A DNA stretch of 34,642 nucleotides, taken from the NCBI GenBank assembly GCA_001512555.1, contig LFSK01000053.1, positions 1-34,642 on the forward strand. Reading direction: 5' to 3'. The notes below the pieces were generated by a model. It worked only from the letters and a program-made list of their open reading frames with translations, was not told where the DNA came from and did not search any database. Both the position numbers and the translations under genes were made by a program. Positions 10,031-26,000 of this stretch are shown in pieces. The first letter of the stretch is position 1; the number at the start of each line of letters is the position of its first letter. This DNA comes from Clostridiaceae bacterium DTU059. Lineage in GTDB: Bacteria > Bacillota > Clostridia > DSM-8532.

Positions 10031-13000
10031 ATGGGAAATACCAAATGGACAAATGAACAATTAGAGGCCATCGTGGACAATAGCGGAAATCTTTTGGTGG
10101 CGGCCGCTGCCGGAGCGGGGAAAACAGCCGTTCTGGTGGAAAGGATCATCCGGAAGATAACCAATCCTCAGGAACCTGTGGATATAGATAGATTGCTAGT
10201 GGTTACCTTTACCAATGCGGCAGCTGCCGAGATGCGGGAAAGGATTGGAGAAGCCATCTCACAGGCTCTGGAGAAGGATCCTGACAACCGCCAGATCCAG
10301 CGTCAGATGACCCTGTTGGGCAAGGCCAGCATTACCACTATCCATTCCTTCTGCCTGGATGTCATACGCAGCAATTTCCAGCATATTGACATCGATCCCA
10401 ACTTCCGGATCGCAGACGAGACCGAAAGCACGCTGATGAAGCTGGAAGCCCTCGATGAGGTCTTTGAAGAGCAGTATGAGAAGGAGGACAACAAAGACTT
10501 TTTAGAGCTATTGGAAAGCTATGGGGGAAACCGTGATGACCAAATACTCATGGATATGGTGTTCAATCTCTACGGCTTTATCCAAAGCAGTCCCTGGCCT
10601 GAAGCCAGGCTTAATGAAATGGCACAGGCACTATCCCTGGAAGAAGGGGCTGATTTCGGCCATACTTCGTGGGGCAGGATTCTTCTGGATGTTGCCCGAC
10701 TTGAGTTTCTGGGACTCAAAGAAATGGCCGGTAAGGCCCTGGCCCTAAGCCGTGAGGCCGGTCTGGATAAGTACCTGACTGTTCTTAAGAATGACTATGA
10801 TCAAATCGACTACGTGCTGCAGATGATTCCGGATCCGGCAGATTCTGAAGGTGCTGCCTTATCCCAAGGGCCAATTTGGGATAAGGTCTGCCGCCTCATC
10901 GAAAGCATTAATTTTGATCGTATGCCAACACTGGGCAAGGATGCGGACAAGGTAAGCCAGGAGAAAGTAAAAAAGATTCGCAATCAAGTAAAAGCAGGTA
11001 TAAGAAAGCTGCAGGAGAGGATTTTTACAGCCGGGTCGGAAGAAATCATAAAAGATCTCAACGCTCTCTATCCAAAAATGAGCTGCCTGGCCGGCCTGGC
11101 ATCTGATCTGGCCAGGAAATACAATGAAAAGAAAGCGCGAAAATCCATGGTTGATTTTAATGACCTGGAGCATCTATGCCTTGAGCTTCTCACTCAAAAA
11201 GATGAGGATGGCAACCTTATCCCTTCCCAAACTGCTGTAACCTACAGAGAACGTTTTGTGGAGGTAATGGTGGATGAATACCAGGACAGCAACCTGGTGC
11301 AGGAGATCATCATCAAAATGATATCCAGGGCTCCTGAGGGAAGGCCAAATGTGTTCATGGTGGGAGATGTAAAGCAGAGCATATATCGATTCAGACAGGC
11401 ACGCCCGGATATCTTCATGGAAAAGTACAACACCTACTCAATAGAAAAGGGGAGCCCTTATAGAAAGATCCTGCTTTACAAGAACTTCAGAAGCCGGAAA
11501 GAAGTGATTGATGCTGTCAATTACCTGTTCGGGCAGTTCATGTCAGAGCAGGTGGGTGAGCTGGATTACACCCAGGAAGAGGCTCTGAACCCGGGAGCTG
11601 TTTTCAATGACCCCGATGAAGGGATTACAGCAGGCGGAGAAGTAGAATTTCACCTGATCCAGACCGGAGGTGCAGATAAGGGATCCACAGATGTTGATGA
11701 GACCGATGATGCCGGTAATGATGAAAACGAGGATGGAGAGGTTCTGGACAATATTCAATGCGAAGCTAGGATTGTGGCCCGCCGGATAAAAGAGCTGCTG
11801 TCCCCTGATGAAGAAGGCAGAGTCTATTCTGTTTGGGATAAATCCAGGAGAGAGTACCGCCCCGTCACCTATCGGGATATTGTCATATTACTTCGCACCA
11901 CCAAGAGCTGGAGCGATGTATTTACCGAGGAATTGGGGATGATGGGAATCCCGGTATTCGCCGATACCGGAAGCGGCTTTTTCAAGACCATTGAGGTACA
12001 GGTGGTTCTGTCCCTTCTCCAGATCATTGATAACCCTCTCCAGGACATTCCCCTGTTGTCGGTACTCCGTTCTCCCATCTTCTCGTTCACCACCGATGAG
12101 TTGGCTGAGATTCGCCTGGCAGAGAGGAAGGGACTTCTGTTCGATGCTCTTTGCAAGCTGGCCGATTCCAAAAATGGCAATACCGCTGCCCGGGCGGCAG
12201 ATTTTTTGGATAAGCTTGAGAGATGGCGCGAGATGTCGCTATATATGTCAACTGACCAACTGATCTGGCAGCTTTATCAGGAGACCGGTTACTATGGTAT
12301 GGTGGGAGCCATGCCGGCCGGGGAACAGCGCCAGGCAAACCTGAGAATACTCTTCGACCGGGCCAGGCAGTTTGAAAAGACCAGCTACAAAGGGCTTTTC
12401 AACTTTATTACCTTCGTAGACAAGCTAAAGAGCAGCCGGGGGGATATGGGAAGCGCCAAGATCCTCAGCGAGAACGACAATGTGGTGCGCATCATGAGCA
12501 TACATAAGAGCAAAGGCCTGGAGTTCCCCGTGGTATTTTTGTCGGGCTGCGGAAAGAAGTTTAATTTTCAGGATATGAACAAGAGTATCCTTCTCCATCA
12601 GGATCTGGGATTCGGACCCGACGTGGTGGATACCAGGCTCAGGGCTTCATGGCCATCAGCTGCAAAACAGGCTATCCGGGAGAAGATAAGGATTGAAACC
12701 CTTTCTGAGGAAATGCGCATCCTCTATGTGGCACTAACAAGAGCCAGGGAAAAGCTTATCATAACCGGAGCAGTCAGGGATTTACCAAAGGCTCTGGAGG
12801 GCTGGGCAGAATCGGCAGATTCGGAAGAGCAGAGGCTTCCAGGATATAAGATGATTAAGGCAACCACTTACCTGGACTGGATGATACCTGCCCTGATGAG
12901 GCACCAAGGCTGCTGTGCATTGCGGGATAGCTTGCCGGCGGGTTATGATTTTAATAATCTTTTGCTTGATGATGAGTCTGTATGGCGGGTTATCTTCTGG

Positions 13001-17888: not shown

Positions 17889-18089
17889 TTATGCCTCCTC
17901 TTCCCAAAACAGCTCATCCAACGTCTTCCCAAGGATGCGGCATATAGCTATGCATAGCTTGATGGTGGGGTTATAGTCACCCTTTTCGATGGCATTGATG
18001 GTTTGCCGCGACACACCCACCGCATCGGCCAGATCTTGCTGAGACATGTCCAAAACCGCACGGGCAGCCTTCAATCTTAAGTTTTTCAT
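17889..18089 (-). CDS. Small XRE-family HTH transcriptional regulator
   Basis: 66 aa: 'MKNLRLKAARAVLDMSQQDLADAVGVSRQTINAIEKGDYNPTIKLCIAICRILGKTLDELFWEEEA', a canonical Cro/C1 HTH. Confidence 0.92.
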   Translation of the reverse strand: MKNLRLKAARAVLDMSQQDLADAVGVSRQTINAIEKGDYNPTIKLCIAICRILGKTLDELFWEEEA

Positions 18090-18092
18090 AAT

Positions 18093-18620
18093 CTACTCCG
18101 TTTCAGCATGTTTTTTATCGTACAGATACTTTGCCACCAGCGTTACATAAATGGGTATCAGCGCGATGACCGCGAACAGGTTCAAACTGTGAGTATTAAA
18201 AAGTCCGTTAGCCGCCATGGGAGTTCCGTCAGCCAGGTTCAGCAAGAAGATCATCAGGTTTGCGGCGATAACAATCAGAAATAGGGTGAAGTAGGGGCCT
18301 GGCCTGTCCCTGAAGGAGAAGAAGGAATCCGTGATGATGCATATTATGGCAAAGACTGCGATTGCCAGATATAATCCCATAAATGTTCCGGTTGTCGAGT
18401 CTGCCCATTGTATTTCGGCCACGTCATTCATGAATGCGGAAAAAAGTGAATATATAACAAATGTCCAGAAAGCGGCCTGGTAGGCCTTGCCTCTAGCTAA
18501 ACGCTGCCGCTCATCAAATTCCCTATTCCTGGCTCTTCTACGAAGCAGCAAGAAAATACCGATACCAAATGCAATGGTGACAGGAAAAAACAGTATAATC
18601 AGCAGATGGTCCAAACTCAT
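18093..18620 (-). CDS. Four- to five-TM membrane protein with 'FDERQ' motif, paired with an XRE regulator
   Basis: 'NREFDERQRLARGKAYQAAFWTFVIYSLFSAF' plus further hydrophobic helices; stop codon 3 nt upstream of the XRE start. ATG at 18620; the track ORF uses a GTG at 18629. Confidence 0.75.
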   Translation of the reverse strand: MSLDHLLIILFFPVTIAFGIGIFLLLRRRARNREFDERQRLARGKAYQAAFWTFVIYSLFSAFMNDVAEIQWADSTTGTFMGLYLAIAVFAIICIITDSFFSFRDRPGPYFTLFLIVIAANLMIFLLNLADGTPMAANGLFNTHSLNLFAVIALIPIYVTLVAKYLYDKKHAETE

Positions 18621-18667
18621 TACACTCACCCCTCAAATCAACATCGCTCCTTAAGTAGTATAAGGTA

Positions 18668-18695
18668 ATTATACAATATCTTTACATAATGTCAA
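18668..18695 (-). promoter_or_regulatory. Consensus sigma-A-type promoter for the membrane-protein/XRE operon
   Basis: Minus strand TTGACA (18695-18690), 16-nt spacer, TATAAT (18673-18668). Both hexamers are perfect consensus. Confidence 0.8.
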
Positions 18696-18777: not shown

Positions 18778-18805
18778 TTTACAAACATTTGACATATCTC
18801 TGATT
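18778..18805 (+). promoter_or_regulatory. Possible Pho box upstream of pstS
   Basis: Hexamers TTTACA (18778), TTGACA (18789) and a weak CTGATT (18800) at 11-bp period, resembling TTAACA-type PhoP/PhoB direct repeats, followed by a CATAAT possible -10. Confidence 0.4.
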
Positions 18806-18867: not shown

Positions 18868-19728
18868 ATGAAAAAAAGTTTTATGAGAGTCATTGCGGCG
18901 GTAATGGCCGCTGGTCTTCTTGCAGGATGTGGCGCAAAAGGGGATGATGTTATCACCGTGATATCCCGTGAGGAGGGCAGCGGAACACGTGGGGCTTTTA
19001 TAGAGCTCTTCGGTATCGAACAGAAGGATGCTGAAGGCAATAAGGTTGATCATACAACCGTTGACGCGGATATCACCAACAGCACATCTGTCATGATGAC
19101 CAGTGTGTCTGGCAATCCCCAGGCCATCGGATACATATCACTGGGTTCACTCAACAATACGGTAAAAGCGCTCGAAATAGACAATACAGCAGCGACAGTC
19201 GAGAATATCAAGTCAGGAAGTTATAAGGTCTCACGACCCTTCAACATTGCAACGGGAGCAGATGTTTCAGAGCCAGCTCAAGCCTTCATCGACTTCATCA
19301 TGAGTGCCGAGGGTCAATCAGTCATCGAGGAAAATGGCTATATTGCGGTGTTGGATAATGCGCCGTCCTATGCCGGAAGCTCAGTCACAGGCAAAGTGGT
19401 GGTGGCAGGTTCCTCTTCTGTATCACCTGTGATGGAAAAGCTCAGGGAAGCATACCTGGAAGTCAACCCCGGTGCCGAGATAGAAATACAACAAAGCGAC
19501 TCCTCTAGCGGTATGAATGCTGTCAAAGATGGCGTGTGCGACATTGGCATGGCCTCCAGAGAGCTTAAGGATAGTGAGCTGGCTGCCGGGCTTAAACCCA
19601 TGGTCATAGCAATGGATGGCATTGCAGTTATCGTGAACAATCAAAATCCTGTCATCGGCCTTACCAGCCAGCAGGTGCGTGCAATTTTCATGGGTGAGAT
19701 AACCCGCTGGAGTGAAATAGATGACTAA
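18868..19728 (+). CDS. pstS: Phosphate ABC transporter substrate-binding lipoprotein (PstS-like, lobes in permuted order)
   Basis: Lipobox 'AAGLLAGCGA', motifs 'ISREEGSGTRGAFIELFG', 'GNPQAIGYISLGSL', 'VAGSSSVSPVMEKL', 'SDSSSGMNAVKDGVCDIGMASRELK', 'DGIAVIVNNQNPV'. Followed by pstCAB. Confidence 0.9.
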   Translation: MKKSFMRVIAAVMAAGLLAGCGAKGDDVITVISREEGSGTRGAFIELFGIEQKDAEGNKVDHTTVDADITNSTSVMMTSVSGNPQAIGYISLGSLNNTVKALEIDNTAATVENIKSGSYKVSRPFNIATGADVSEPAQAFIDFIMSAEGQSVIEENGYIAVLDNAPSYAGSSVTGKVVVAGSSSVSPVMEKLREAYLEVNPGAEIEIQQSDSSSGMNAVKDGVCDIGMASRELKDSELAAGLKPMVIAMDGIAVIVNNQNPVIGLTSQQVRAIFMGEITRWSEIDD

Positions 19729-19786
19729 CAGAAACAATGGGTGGGTCGGAGCCATTTCTGGCCCACCCAAAGAAAAAGGATTGTAT

Positions 19787-20638
19787 ATGAAACAACTCAA
19801 AGAGGTACTGGCCAGAGGCCTTTTCACTGTCGCGGCCTGCATTTCAATTCTTGCGGTGGCGCTCATATGCATTTTTCTTTTTGTAAACGGTATTCCCGGC
19901 ATGGTACAAATCGGGATCGTGGACTTTATTACAGGCACCAGGTGGAAGCCGGGTAACAATATATATGGCATAATGCCCATGATAATCGGAAGCATTTATG
20001 TGACTGCCGGGGCGCTCATTATAGGGGTGCCGGGAGGAATACTTACAGCAGTGTTCCTATCAAAATTCGCATCAAAGCGTACTGTGAAATTCATGAAACC
20101 CGCTGTTTCGCTGCTTGCTGGTATTCCTTCAGTAGTCTTTGGATTCTTTGGGCTTGTGGTGATCGTACCGCTGGTTCGTAAGTTTTTTGGCGGCAGTGGA
20201 TCCAGCCTGTTGGCTGCCTGTGTATTGCTTGGCATGATGATCCTGCCCACGATCATTACTGTTTCGGAATCAGCTTTAAACGCTGTTCCCCATAGTTACT
20301 ACGAGGGAGCTCTTGCGTTGGGGGCAAGCCACGAGCGGGCGGTGTTCAAAGTGATGCTTCCTGCGGCAAAGTCCGGAGTGACAGCCTCCATCATACTGGG
20401 GATGGGCAGGGCTATCGGTGAGGCTATGGCGGTCATGATGGTGTCCGGAAATCGGGCTGTGGTACCCGACAGCCTCATAAAAGGTGTGCGTACCCTTACA
20501 ACCAATATTGTTATGGAAATGGGGTATGCCGCCGACCTCCACCGGGAGGCGCTGATCGCTACCGCTGTGGTGCTGTTTGTGTTCATCCTGATCATCAATT
20601 TATTGTTTTCCATTCTTAAAAGGAGGGCCAGACTATGA
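19787..20638 (+). CDS. pstC: Phosphate ABC transporter permease PstC
   Basis: 'FVNGIPGMVQIGIVDFITGTRWKPGNNIYGIMPMIIGSIYVT', 'AGIPSVVFGFFGLV', 'EALALGASHERAVFKVMLPAAKSG'-type EAA loop. Start likely ATG 19787. Confidence 0.92.
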   Translation: MKQLKEVLARGLFTVAACISILAVALICIFLFVNGIPGMVQIGIVDFITGTRWKPGNNIYGIMPMIIGSIYVTAGALIIGVPGGILTAVFLSKFASKRTVKFMKPAVSLLAGIPSVVFGFFGLVVIVPLVRKFFGGSGSSLLAACVLLGMMILPTIITVSESALNAVPHSYYEGALALGASHERAVFKVMLPAAKSGVTASIILGMGRAIGEAMAVMMVSGNRAVVPDSLIKGVRTLTTNIVMEMGYAADLHREALIATAVVLFVFILIINLLFSILKRRARL

Positions 20639-21471
20639 GTGCAAAAACCAGATCCCGCATGGTACGCATGCTGGTTTATGCCGGAGCGGCTTCTTCTATG
20701 ATGGTGCTGCTCTTCATCGTGGGATACATCCTTTATAAAGGGATACCCCATCTTTCGCCAAAGCTTTTTGCATGGGAATATAATACGGTTAATGTGTCGC
20801 TTCTGCCTGCGCTGATCAATACCCTGTATATGACCGTACTGTCCCTTTTCATCGCCGTCCCTCTGGGTGTGGGCGCCGCCATATATCTTTCGGAATACGC
20901 AAGGCGAAACAATAAACTCGTGAAGCTTGTACGCCTCACGACGGAAACTCTTTCTGGTATCCCTTCCGTTATTTACGGACTGTTCGGCGCATTGTTTTAT
21001 GTGATGTACCTCAGGATGAACCTGTCATTGATTTCGGGAGCATTGACCCTATCCATCATGATTCTGCCGCTTATCATGCGTACGACCGAGGAAGCGCTCA
21101 TTGCGGTTCCCAATGCCTTTCGCGAGGGAAGTTACGGGCTGGGTGCCGGCAGGCTTCGCACCACGTTCAGTATAGTACTCCCTTCGGCTGGTCCCGGCAT
21201 TCTTGCCGGAGTGATACTGGGGATTGGGCGTATTGTAGGAGAAACCGCGGCTCTAATCTATACGGCGGGAACCGTGCCCGAGGCAGCCACAGGTTTGCTG
21301 GATTCCGCACGAACCCTTTCGGTTCACATGTACACCCTTTCCAGTGAGGGTCTGTATATTGGCGAGACTTATGCCACAGCAGTTGTATTGCTGGTTATGG
21401 TCATTGGAATAAATGCACTGTCAATATGGACGTCAGAGAAGCTTGGAAGGAGAAACTATGGCAAAATTTAA
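20635..21471 (+). CDS. pstA: Phosphate ABC transporter permease PstA
   Basis: '[16 protein letters not shown]', '[16 protein letters not shown]', '[49 protein letters not shown]'. ATGA overlap with pstC. Confidence 0.93.
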
Positions 21472-22207
21472 AATTGAAAACCTCGATCTTTACTATGGTG
21501 CATATCAGGCATTGAAGGATGTAACCATGTCCATAGATGAGTTAAAGATCACTGCTTTAATCGGACCCTCTGGTTGCGGCAAGAGCACACTCCTCAAATC
21601 ATTGAACCGCATGAATGACTTGGTGGAAGGCTGCAGGATATCAGGGCGAGTACTGCTTGACGGTGAGGACATATACGGAAGCATAGACACCTCACTTCTG
21701 CGCAAACGCGTGGGTATGGTATTCCAAAAACCCAACCCCTTTCCCATGAGTGTGTATGATAATGTGGCTTTCGGCCCTCGCACCCACGGTGTCCGCAGAA
21801 AGGCAAAACTCGATGATATCGTAGAGCGTTCGCTGCGAGCTGCGGCCATATGGGATGAACTGAAGGATCGCTTAAAAAAGGACGCATTGGAGCTTTCGGG
21901 GGGACAGCAGCAGAGGCTGTGTATCGCCCGGGCATTGGCTGTTGAACCGGAGGTGCTGCTGATGGATGAACCGACGAGCGCCCTGGATCCCATATCCACA
22001 TCCAGGATTGAGGATCTTGTTGTATCCCTCAAACAGAATTATACTATCATCATAGTGACACATAATATGCAGCAAGCGGTAAGAATCTCCGATAAAACAG
22101 CTTTTTTTCTTCTGGGGGAACTCGTTGAATATAGTGAGACTCAAAAACTGTTCTCTCTGCCTCGGGATAAGCGTACCGAGAACTATATTACGGGGAGGTT
22201 CGGATGA
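21458..22207 (+). CDS. pstB: Phosphate ABC transporter ATP-binding protein PstB
   Basis: '[24 protein letters not shown]', Walker A 'GPSGCGKST', signature 'LSGGQQQRL', Walker B '[13 protein letters not shown]'. Confidence 0.96.
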
Positions 22208-22863
22208 TGAGAAACCGGTTTGATGAACAACTCTGCTTGCTGAACAAGGAACTTCTGGAAATGGGAGCCCTTATTGAACGATCTATCAAGAATGCGACCA
22301 AAGCCCTTCTAAAGCAGGATGTTGAGACCGCCAAGGCTGCAATAGGCTTCGATAAAGAGGTGGATCAAAAGGAACGCGACATAGAGGCGCTATGCATAAA
22401 GCTGTTGCTTCAGCAGCAGCCGGTTGCCGGTGATCTGAGGCTTATTTCGGCAGCAATGAAGATGATAACCGACATGGAGCGTATTGGAGACCAGGCGGCC
22501 GATATTTCCGAAATTGTAATCCATCTTTCTGGTACGCCCTATATAAAAAAGCTGGTGCATCTTCCCCTTATGGCCGATGGTGCCATCAACATGGTTTCCG
22601 CAAGTTTGGATGCATATGTAGCCAAGGATTTGGGGCTTGTCCGCAGGGTAATTGAGATGGACGATGTTATCGATAATCTGTTTGATATAATTAAGAACGA
22701 ACTCATAGAGCTTATACGAAAAGATGCGGCATACGGTACACAGGCCATTGACCTTTTAATGATCGCCAAATATTTTGAACGCATCGGTGATCATGCCCAA
22801 AACATTGCCGAATGGGTGGAGTATTCAATAACCGGCAAGCACAAAGGAGAGTACCTTACATGA
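22204..22863 (+). CDS. phoU: Phosphate signaling complex protein PhoU
   Basis: '[26 protein letters not shown]', '[14 protein letters not shown]', '[24 protein letters not shown]' tandem PhoU motifs. Confidence 0.95.
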
Positions 22864-23531
22864 TCTATTATGTTGAGGACGATGAAAACATCCGCGAACT
22901 CGTAGTATACACTCTGTCGCAAATGGGACTGCCGGCCAGGGGTTTTTCTGATGCAACGATATTCTGGTCTGCAATGGAAGAACAGTTGCCCGATCTCATA
23001 CTTGTGGATATCATGCTGCCAGGGGAGGATGGGCTTACCATATTAAAACGCTTGCAGTCCGATTATAGAACAGCGGAGATACCCGTCATCATGGTGACAG
23101 CTAAGGGAACCGAGTATGATAAGGTTCAGGGACTTGATCTCGGCGCAGACGATTATATCACAAAGCCTTTCGGAATGGCGGAACTGGTGGCGCGCGTAAA
23201 GGCAAGGCTTCGGCGGAAACCGGCAATGCCGGTCGAGGAAAAGATGGTAGCAGGTCCACTTGTGCTGGATGAAAAGGCGCACATCGTCACAGTGGAAGGC
23301 GCTGAGATCACATTAACGCTCAAAGAATACGAACTCCTGCGGATTCTTATGAAAAACAGGGGGGCGGTGCTAACCCGTGATCAACTCCTGGAGAGGGTAT
23401 GGGACTATAGCTATGACGGCAGTTCCCGTACCGTTGATGTTCATATACAGACACTGCGTGGAAAGCTTGGATCCTGCGGAGATATGATAGAAACTGTGCG
23501 TGGAGTTGGCTATAGGTTCGGAGGAAAGTGA
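22860..23531 (+). CDS. phoB: PhoB/OmpR-family response regulator
   Basis: Receiver 'YYVEDDENIRELV', 'LILVDIMLPGEDG', 'GADDYITKPF'; winged-helix 'LTLKEYELLRILMKNRGAVLTRDQLLERVW...RTVDVHIQTLRGKLG'. ATGA overlap with phoU. Symbol by context. Confidence 0.92.
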   Translation: MIYYVEDDENIRELVVYTLSQMGLPARGFSDATIFWSAMEEQLPDLILVDIMLPGEDGLTILKRLQSDYRTAEIPVIMVTAKGTEYDKVQGLDLGADDYITKPFGMAELVARVKARLRRKPAMPVEEKMVAGPLVLDEKAHIVTVEGAEITLTLKEYELLRILMKNRGAVLTRDQLLERVWDYSYDGSSRTVDVHIQTLRGKLGSCGDMIETVRGVGYRFGGK

Positions 23532-23532
23532 A

Positions 23533-25191
23533 ATGACAAAGCGCATCTTTCGGGGCATCTTTCTCACTGCCCTGGTTGCAATGATTCTGGCAACTGCATT
23601 GATGGTCATGTCCCTGTACGATGTCTATGAGAAGCGTATTACCGAGGAACTACGCTCAGAAGCAGGGTATATCCTCCATGCACTTTCCAGGGAGAATGAT
23701 GAATCTGAATTTTTTGATGGCTTTACCTCCAAAAACCGTGTAACTCTGGTTGCGGCCGATGGTACCGTTCTCTTTGACAGCACCGCTGATGCATCCAGGC
23801 TTGAGAATCACGCCAATCGTCCTGAAATTGCCAAGGCCTTAATTGCTGGTACTGGCGAAAGCCAGAGATATTCCAGCACGCTAGCAGAAACCACTATTTA
23901 TTATGCAGTGAAAACTCCTGATGGAAATGTTGTACGCCTATCCAACACCCGAAGTTCCATATTTGGGATATTCCTTAGGATAACACCCATTTTCATCGTT
24001 ATCATGTCCGCAGTTGCAGTTGTTTCGCTTATCATTGCCCGCTATGTTTCAAAACGAATAGTAAATCCCATAAACACACTCAATTTGGATGCGCCTTTGG
24101 AAAACGATGCCTATGACGAATTGTCCCCCCTGCTGCTGCGTTTGGATCGTCAGAGAAAGCAAATTGCCAGGCAGATGCAGAGCCTTGCCATGAAGCAGAC
24201 TGAGTTTTCCGCCGTAACCGGGAATATGCGGGAGGGTCTGATCCTGCTTGATCCAAACAACAATGTACTGTCTGTGAACGCAAGCGCAGCAAGAATATTT
24301 GGTGTTGAGGCTGACAAGGTGACCGGGAGCAATATTCTTGAACTTACACGCAACACTTTGGTGAGGGAGACCATACAAACAGCACGAAAAGGTGTAAGCG
24401 CCGATGCCATGATTGAGAGGAACGGCCGGTATTATCAAATACTTACAAGTCCTATTATGCAAAACGGCATAACCACCGGCGTTGTACTGCTTATGCTCGA
24501 TATTACAGACAAGTATACCGCAGAGATGAGCCGAAGGGAATTCACCGCGAATGTATCCCATGAACTTAGGACTCCGCTGACTTCCATATCCGGCTATGCT
24601 GAAATCATGCGGGACGGGGTGGCGCAGCCAGAGGACATGAAGAATTTTGCGGCACGTATCTACGACGAGGCAAACCGAATGATTACCCTTGTGAACGATA
24701 TCATGGAACTGTCACGTCTGGATGAGCATAAGGGCTTAGGCCAAAAGACCGATATCGCGCTTCTTGAAATGTCGAGAAGTGTGGCAAAGCATCTTATACC
24801 CCGTGCCGAGGAGAAGGGTATAGTTCTTTCTGTGGACGGCGAAGATCTGTCGGTCACTGGTTACCCGTCGCTTCTAAATGAAATGATCTATAACCTGGTG
24901 GACAATGCCATCAAGTATACAGACACGGGGGGCAGCATAAAAATCAACATTAACTGGGACTCCGACAGAGTGGTGCTCTCTGTGTGTGATACGGGTATTG
25001 GAATTCCCCATGAGCATCAGCCACATGTTTTTGAACGCTTCTACAGGGTAGACAAAAGCCATTCCAAATCCACCGGCGGTACGGGTTTGGGGCTTTCCAT
25101 AGTCAAAAATGGTGCGGCCGTACATGATGCTGATATTGAACTTGAGAGTGAAGAGGGGAAAGGAACCTGTGTACGCTTATTGTTCAGGTGA
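23533..25191 (+). CDS. phoR: PhoR-like sensor histidine kinase
   Basis: TM segments, PAS region, H-box 'FTANVSHELRTPLTSISGYAEIM', N-box 'LVDNAIKYTDTGG', 'CDTGIGIPHEHQPHVFERFYRVDKSHSKSTGGTGLGLSIVK'. Confidence 0.93.
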   Translation: MTKRIFRGIFLTALVAMILATALMVMSLYDVYEKRITEELRSEAGYILHALSRENDESEFFDGFTSKNRVTLVAADGTVLFDSTADASRLENHANRPEIAKALIAGTGESQRYSSTLAETTIYYAVKTPDGNVVRLSNTRSSIFGIFLRITPIFIVIMSAVAVVSLIIARYVSKRIVNPINTLNLDAPLENDAYDELSPLLLRLDRQRKQIARQMQSLAMKQTEFSAVTGNMREGLILLDPNNNVLSVNASAARIFGVEADKVTGSNILELTRNTLVRETIQTARKGVSADAMIERNGRYYQILTSPIMQNGITTGVVLLMLDITDKYTAEMSRREFTANVSHELRTPLTSISGYAEIMRDGVAQPEDMKNFAARIYDEANRMITLVNDIMELSRLDEHKGLGQKTDIALLEMSRSVAKHLIPRAEEKGIVLSVDGEDLSVTGYPSLLNEMIYNLVDNAIKYTDTGGSIKININWDSDRVVLSVCDTGIGIPHEHQPHVFERFYRVDKSHSKSTGGTGLGLSIVKNGAAVHDADIELESEEGKGTCVRLLFR

Positions 25192-25234: not shown

Positions 25235-25408
25235 GCATTTCAGGGCAAAAACCTATACATTTCGGGTAAATGCGATCTTTTTCCTCGTGTTCTTCGCTAA
25301 TATAAGTCTGTGTGCTGAAAACCTGCAGTTAAAACACTGAGGGCGAAGAAGAGCCTGTAGTTTTCAGGTAAATCAGGCACACTTAATTCTTTGGGGGGAG
25401 AAGAGCAC

Positions 25409-26000
25409 ATGGTTAAAAGATTCATAAGTCTGGTCATTGTGTTATGCATGACCTTAACAATGCTGCCATCGTTGGCTTCAGCCGCAGGTGGGCTTGTGTT
25501 TGATATGAAAACAGGCACCGTCACGATTGAGAACGGTACCGGAAAGAATACATTCTCACCCCAAGCGTCAACAAACCGGGGCATGATTGTCGCCATTCTG
25601 CATAAGCTGAGCGGTTCGGAAGAAACACTGCAAAGTCCCTTCAGGGATGTAGTTTCTGGCGCATATTATGCTGAAGGGGTGGCCTGGGCTCAAAAGAATG
25701 GCATTGTTGCCGGATATGGAAACGGGTTGTTCGATCCAGAGGACAGCATCACCCGTGAACATGATAACCATTCTATGGAAATTTGCAGGATTTCCTGCTG
25801 CTGACACCACAAGCCTTGTTGTATTCAAGGATGCCGGTGAGATATCCACATATGCCGGATATGCTATGGCATGGGCGTATGAATCAGGCATTATAGCGGG
25901 TAAAGGTAACGGGATTGTTGATCCCGAGGGAATAGTCACCAGAGCAGAGACAGCGAAGATACTTGAGAGTTATCTAAGTAGTAGAGAAACTGGTAGGTGA
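25409..26000 (+). pseudogene. S-layer homology (SLH) domain protein, frameshifted
   Basis: Signal peptide 'MVKRFISLVIVLCMTLTMLPSLASA'. SLH repeats 'FRDVVSGAYYAEGVAWAQKNGIVAGYGNGLFDPEDSITRE' in frame 1 continue in another frame as 'MITILWKFAGFPAADTTSLVVFKDAGEISTYAGYAMAWAYESGIIAGKGNGIVDPEGIVTRAETAKILESYL'. Break at about 25760. Confidence 0.85.

Follow-up and report, generated by a model that had tools for sequence, protein, structure and literature searches.

A circularly permuted PstS heading a pstCAB-phoU operon in a Clostridia genome belongs to a single permuted clade that includes PstS2 of Streptococcus pneumoniae

PstS, a textbook example of a binding protein, also serves as a biosensor scaffold. 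In the stretch of DNA analyzed here (the window; 34,642 nucleotides, contig LFSK01000053.1 of Clostridiaceae bacterium DTU059), the gene at 18868..19728 encodes a PstS-like lipoprotein in which motifs typical of the canonical C-terminal half precede those of the N-terminal half. This arrangement raises the question whether the gene is truncated, misassembled, diverted to another ligand or genuinely permuted and, in the latter case, how many times the permutation arose. The product of 18868..19728 is a complete PstS in true circular permutation. The overall explanation that we favor, with a probability of about 0.93, is that it serves an ordinary, Pho-controlled Pst importer as its phosphate-binding lipoprotein and is a member of one old lineage of permuted PstS to which S. 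pneumoniae PstS2 also belongs.

The gene lies on the plus strand (ATG at 18868, stop codon at 19726-19728) and encodes 286 amino acids, beginning with a lipoprotein signal peptide (18868..18930) that contains the lipobox LAGC (residues 18-21, with Cys21); a simple lipobox motif is present in 102 of 127 permuted homologues. Residues 27-165 (18946..19362) correspond by alignment to the canonical C-terminal half, from the SGTR loop to the EGQ helix and tail (residues 117-244 of 4q8r and 140-278 of 1twy), and residues 175-286 (19390..19725) to the canonical N-terminal half, from the GSSS loop to IFxGEITxW (residues 3-113 of 4q8r), the chain stopping 5 residues past W281. The old C-terminus is connected to the old N-terminus by a linker of approximately residues 160-174 (19345..19389), delimited by the conserved spacing between Y158 and G181. 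The motif order reported in the initial annotation is thus reproduced in the open reading frame: SREEGSGTR, IGYISLGS, AFIDFIMSAEGQ, GSSSVSPVMEKL, DIGMASREL, DGIAVIVNN and IFMGEITRW. The protein passes the gathering score of the PBP_like_2 superfamily (PF12849; 121.4 bits against a cut-off of 27) in two stretches, the best of which places residues 168-283 on profile positions 3-125, and it misses the cut-off of the PstS subfamily TIGR02136 (197.1 against 206.6 bits), a linear NCBIfam model whose match is split in two by the permuted order. Linear profile models thus split or underscore permuted PstS, and at least one such protein is annotated merely as 'substrate-binding domain-containing protein'.

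This genome also encodes a canonical PstS (L084:6208-7059, minus strand), which provides a built-in control for these comparisons. The local alignment score between the two proteins rises from 207 in linear order to 395 after rotation, with shuffled sequences scoring at most 66, whereas between two canonical PstS the rotation of one adds no more than 6 points. The PDB chains 4q8r, 4gd5, 1twy and 4n13 align to the permuted protein solely as two swapped pieces; the sole chain that matches it linearly is 4h1x (residues 27-284, E = 4.7e-63). Neither the PDB alignments nor the rotation test yielded a full-length linear alignment to a canonical PstS. The canonical gene belongs to a second pst system (L084:4449-7059 and 10843-11718), in which pstS, pstC and pstA lie together and pstB is several kilobases apart, with threonyl-tRNA synthetase-like and HolA-like genes between them on the other strand.

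An AlphaFold2 model of the permuted protein, computed from an alignment with 68 permuted homologues (pLDDT 93.9, pTM 0.85), shows a complete predicted fold in which no PBP lobe is lacking. Together with the gain on rotation and the swapped PDB pieces, this agrees with the original proposal that both halves are complete and that the protein is permuted rather than truncated. Foldseek, a sequential aligner, gave one good full-length match to the model, namely 4H1X (TM 0.88/0.97, rmsd 1.2 over 258 columns), and aligned only half of it with the canonical 1twy (136 columns, TM 0.41); a model of the genome's own canonical PstS, built in the same way (pLDDT 94.2), aligns linearly with the PDB PstS set from end to end. 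After a cyclic shift, the strands and helices of the permuted and canonical models pair one to one: E30-34 with E148-152, H39-47 with H157-166, E86-91 with E194-199, E122-129 with E230-238, E175-182 with E31-37 and E243-256 with E98-112 (permuted element first). The permuted model additionally contains two short paired strands, at 51-53 and 59-61. Retention of the canonical PstS fold is the best explanation of the models, and the permuted topology is already represented by the solved structure 4H1X. Canonical members of TIGR02136 (4Q8R, 4GD5, 1TWY and the second PstS of this genome) share the fold elements, site motifs and operon with the permuted form but differ in chain order, the permuted form being cut in lobe 2 with its former termini joined.

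The new ends fall in a loop between the helix that ends in EITRWSEI and the strand ITVISREEGSGTR. In nearly all canonical PstS, the tryptophan of EITxW and the arginine of the SGTR strand are spaced by 14 residues; permuted chains end 0-11 residues past this tryptophan (median 5). The distance from Y158 to G181, which spans the linker, is 21-25 residues across 120 permuted homologues, and the spacer between the lipid and the core ranges from 12 to 70 residues. In type II binding proteins, both canonical termini are located in lobe 1 and the loop between EITxW and SGTR in lobe 2. Given this layout, the permutation would make lobe 1 contiguous in the chain and divide lobe 2, with the two hinge crossings kept, and would shift the lipid tether to lobe 2, the lobes being assigned by homology and by the order of structural elements. 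The initial annotation described a permuted lobe order; this wording does not hold, because whole lobes are not swapped and the cut lies inside lobe 2, so that the halves do not coincide with the lobes.

The suggestion that other clostridial PstS homologues share this order proved correct: it was found in all 80 related loci from genome contigs, in a search that favored close relatives. Permuted PstS is encoded by 7 of the 32 genomes of the family, and G000, G028 and G015 have a canonical PstS too. Among 146 genomes of the class Clostridia, 29 (approximately one fifth) encode permuted PstS and 47 a canonical relative detectable with the permuted query. Across the phylum, permuted PstS was found in 12 of 300 genomes (counting that of the window and leaving out the tandem protein described below). 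It also occurs in some Actinomycetota, and a closed Treponema saccharophilum plasmid carries it together with pstCAB-phoU; bins assigned to Synergistaceae apparently have it as well. In the phylum of Enteroscipio, a full-length linear match is present in 5 of 150 genomes, the central one included. In G121, two adjacent permuted pstS genes head one pst operon (L172:1227-3220, minus strand), with approximately 40% and 49% identity to the query. The long reading frames of L009 and L056 resemble upstream read-through rather than fusions.

In the window, permuted pstS heads a full pstCAB-phoU operon on the plus strand, as originally noted, with all four downstream genes above the equivalog cut-offs: pstC (19784..20638; TIGR02138, 276 bits, cut-off 196), pstA (20635..21471; TIGR00974, 268 bits, cut-off 193), pstB (21455..22207; TIGR00972, 412 bits, cut-off 343) and phoU (22204..22863; TIGR02135, 210 bits, cut-off 130). 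Next on the same strand are genes for a PhoB-type response regulator (22857..23531; Response_reg and Trans_reg_C) and a PhoR-type sensor kinase with PAS, HisKA and HATPase_c domains identified with Pfam (23500..25191, start approximate). The gene order S-C-A-B-U is kept in most of the 73 loci with enough flank. A Pho box, TTTACAAACATTTGACA (18778..18794, plus strand), a direct repeat of the PhoB/PhoP type, begins 90 bases before the pstS start codon and is the only mismatch-free match in the window. Upstream regions of permuted pstS contain a perfect Pho box in 47 of 116 cases and one with a single mismatch in 51 more (0.1 and 6.3, respectively, expected from shuffling); a perfect box precedes 24 of 41 canonical pstS genes. 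No Pho box was detected upstream of the canonical pstS of this genome, where the best match has 3 mismatches.

Several other features flank the operon. A divergent gene (18093-18629, 178 aa), followed by an HTH gene (17889-18089), has a 12/12 TTGACA-16-TATAAT promoter-like site on the minus strand (18668-18695) that is overlapped by repeated TTTACATAATGT motifs. Downstream of the sensor kinase, S-layer homology domains are encoded in two overlapping frames (25391-25804 and 25668-26000), suggesting that the SLH protein at 25391-26000 is frameshifted or decayed. A gene of the streptomycin adenylyltransferase family (PF04439; 26610-27494, minus strand) adjoins one for a DUF362 protein.

From its genomic context and motifs, the permuted PstS most likely functions in high-affinity phosphate uptake under phosphate limitation; it would bind phosphate in the cleft and hand it over to PstCA as PstS does. 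The closest characterized relative is S. pneumoniae PstS2 (SP_2084; PDB 4H1X, released 2012), which shares the permuted order and clade and aligns linearly over residues 27-284 with 46% identity (Foldseek alignment). The pneumococcal pst2 operon has been described as an inorganic-phosphate transporter (Zheng et al., PMC4913102); in that organism a Pho box is located upstream of pstS1 and none is recognizable for pst2, both systems being treated as phosphate importers (PMC4913102). The placement of the Pho box is thus reversed, accompanying the permuted but not the canonical system here, and pstS1 but not pst2 in S. pneumoniae.

An alternative assignment is that the permuted protein is a paralogue with a ligand other than phosphate, such as a different oxyanion or a phosphate ester. 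Both the additional short-strand pair at residues 51-61 and the coexistence of the two forms in 3 of the 146 Clostridia genomes would be compatible with such a role. However, permuted pstS heads pstCAB-phoU and carries a Pho box, and the RxxxSGT, GSSS and SSG site motifs are conserved, the putative phosphate-site residues R34, S38, G39, T40, S182, S184, S212, S230 and R231 being invariant in 68 permuted homologues. Furthermore, the two forms are largely mutually exclusive (26 genomes with the permuted form only, 44 with the canonical form only; Fisher p = 0.004, uncorrected for kinship), a pattern that fits replacement of one PstS form by the other. A different ligand therefore appears improbable. 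Still less can be said for an assembly or annotation artefact, that is, a misassembly that joined halves of two pstS genes: although the window comes from a draft genome of 215 contigs, the same junction is found in 120 distinct homologues, including those in single-contig genomes and on the closed Treponema plasmid, as well as in the crystallized protein 4H1X, and these independent copies already refute this reading.

The phylogenetic trees, for which the sequences were first rotated to a common order, show that the permutation arose once. Permuted PstS form one clade in a 108-row tree (SH-aLRT 99) and in a careful full-length tree (100/98, with 4H1X inside), in which a single change accounts for the distribution of the two orders in 100% of bootstrap trees; the clade is placed among canonical sequences. 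Repeated independent permutation at the same cut finds some room in the half-domain trees, which are poorly resolved: the A half requires one change, with weak support, and the B half by itself requires two. Against this stand the full-length tree, the constancy of the breakpoint and linker, and the cognate permeases, PstC and PstA from permuted operons forming one clade (SH-aLRT 100), which also indicates that the binding protein and the permeases travelled together. We regard several origins as very improbable, even more so than a different ligand.

Under the single origin, the chain would have been cut once, in the lobe 2 loop adjoining the SGTR phosphate-binding strand, and the lobe 1 ends joined by a short linker. 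The likely route is a tandem duplication and fusion of pstS, after which the first N-terminal half and the last C-terminal half would have been lost. A tandem lipoprotein consisting of two complete canonical PstS domains is encoded in two species of one genus from another Bacillota lineage (L171:1350-2981, minus strand, in G385, and L219 in G616; 75% identical), and in G385 it heads pstCAB-phoU. The G385 protein, at 45%, had been a candidate for a divergent permuted protein, and was dropped from the permuted count once the two canonical domains were recognized. The tandem protein cannot be taken as the ancestor of the permuted clade, since its place in the tree is among canonical PstS and not as sister to that clade, but it may be viewed as a present-day counterpart of the duplication intermediate that this route predicts: the duplication-fusion step does occur and persist.

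Circular permutation is known in other binding-protein families, including glycine betaine- and molybdate-binding proteins (PMC2395249). Among these, OpuAC of Bacillus subtilis is a type II glycine betaine-binding protein and a circular permutant of its relatives (PMC2395249); it differs from permuted PstS in ligand and family and gave the second-best, weak fold match to our model (TM 0.46/0.49), which does not suffice to assign both the same cut. The tethered substrate-binding lipoprotein TpMglB-2 of Treponema pallidum (Type Ic / Cluster Bc) is likewise permuted in nature and has retained ligand binding (PMC4990184), but it is a type I glucose binder with another cut and a fourth hinge crossing. 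For PstS, the permuted form is present as 4H1X and apparently undiscussed: the papers outside subscription that we searched contained nothing relevant on PstS permutation and no mention of 4H1X, and a prior remark in the subscription literature is possible.

The permuted clade provides a natural, single-origin permutation of PstS with paired canonical controls, one of them in this very genome. With it one can test how binding and docking depend on where the tether sits, on the order of the chain and on hinge connectivity. It is conceivable, if rather doubtful, that the permutation is functional rather than neutral: with its tether on lobe 2 instead of lobe 1, the protein might be presented differently to PstC and PstA in its open and closed states, and a matched unit of permuted PstS and PstCA might have been fixed and spread as such. 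If so, the permuted systems would constitute a distinct class of Pst transporter.
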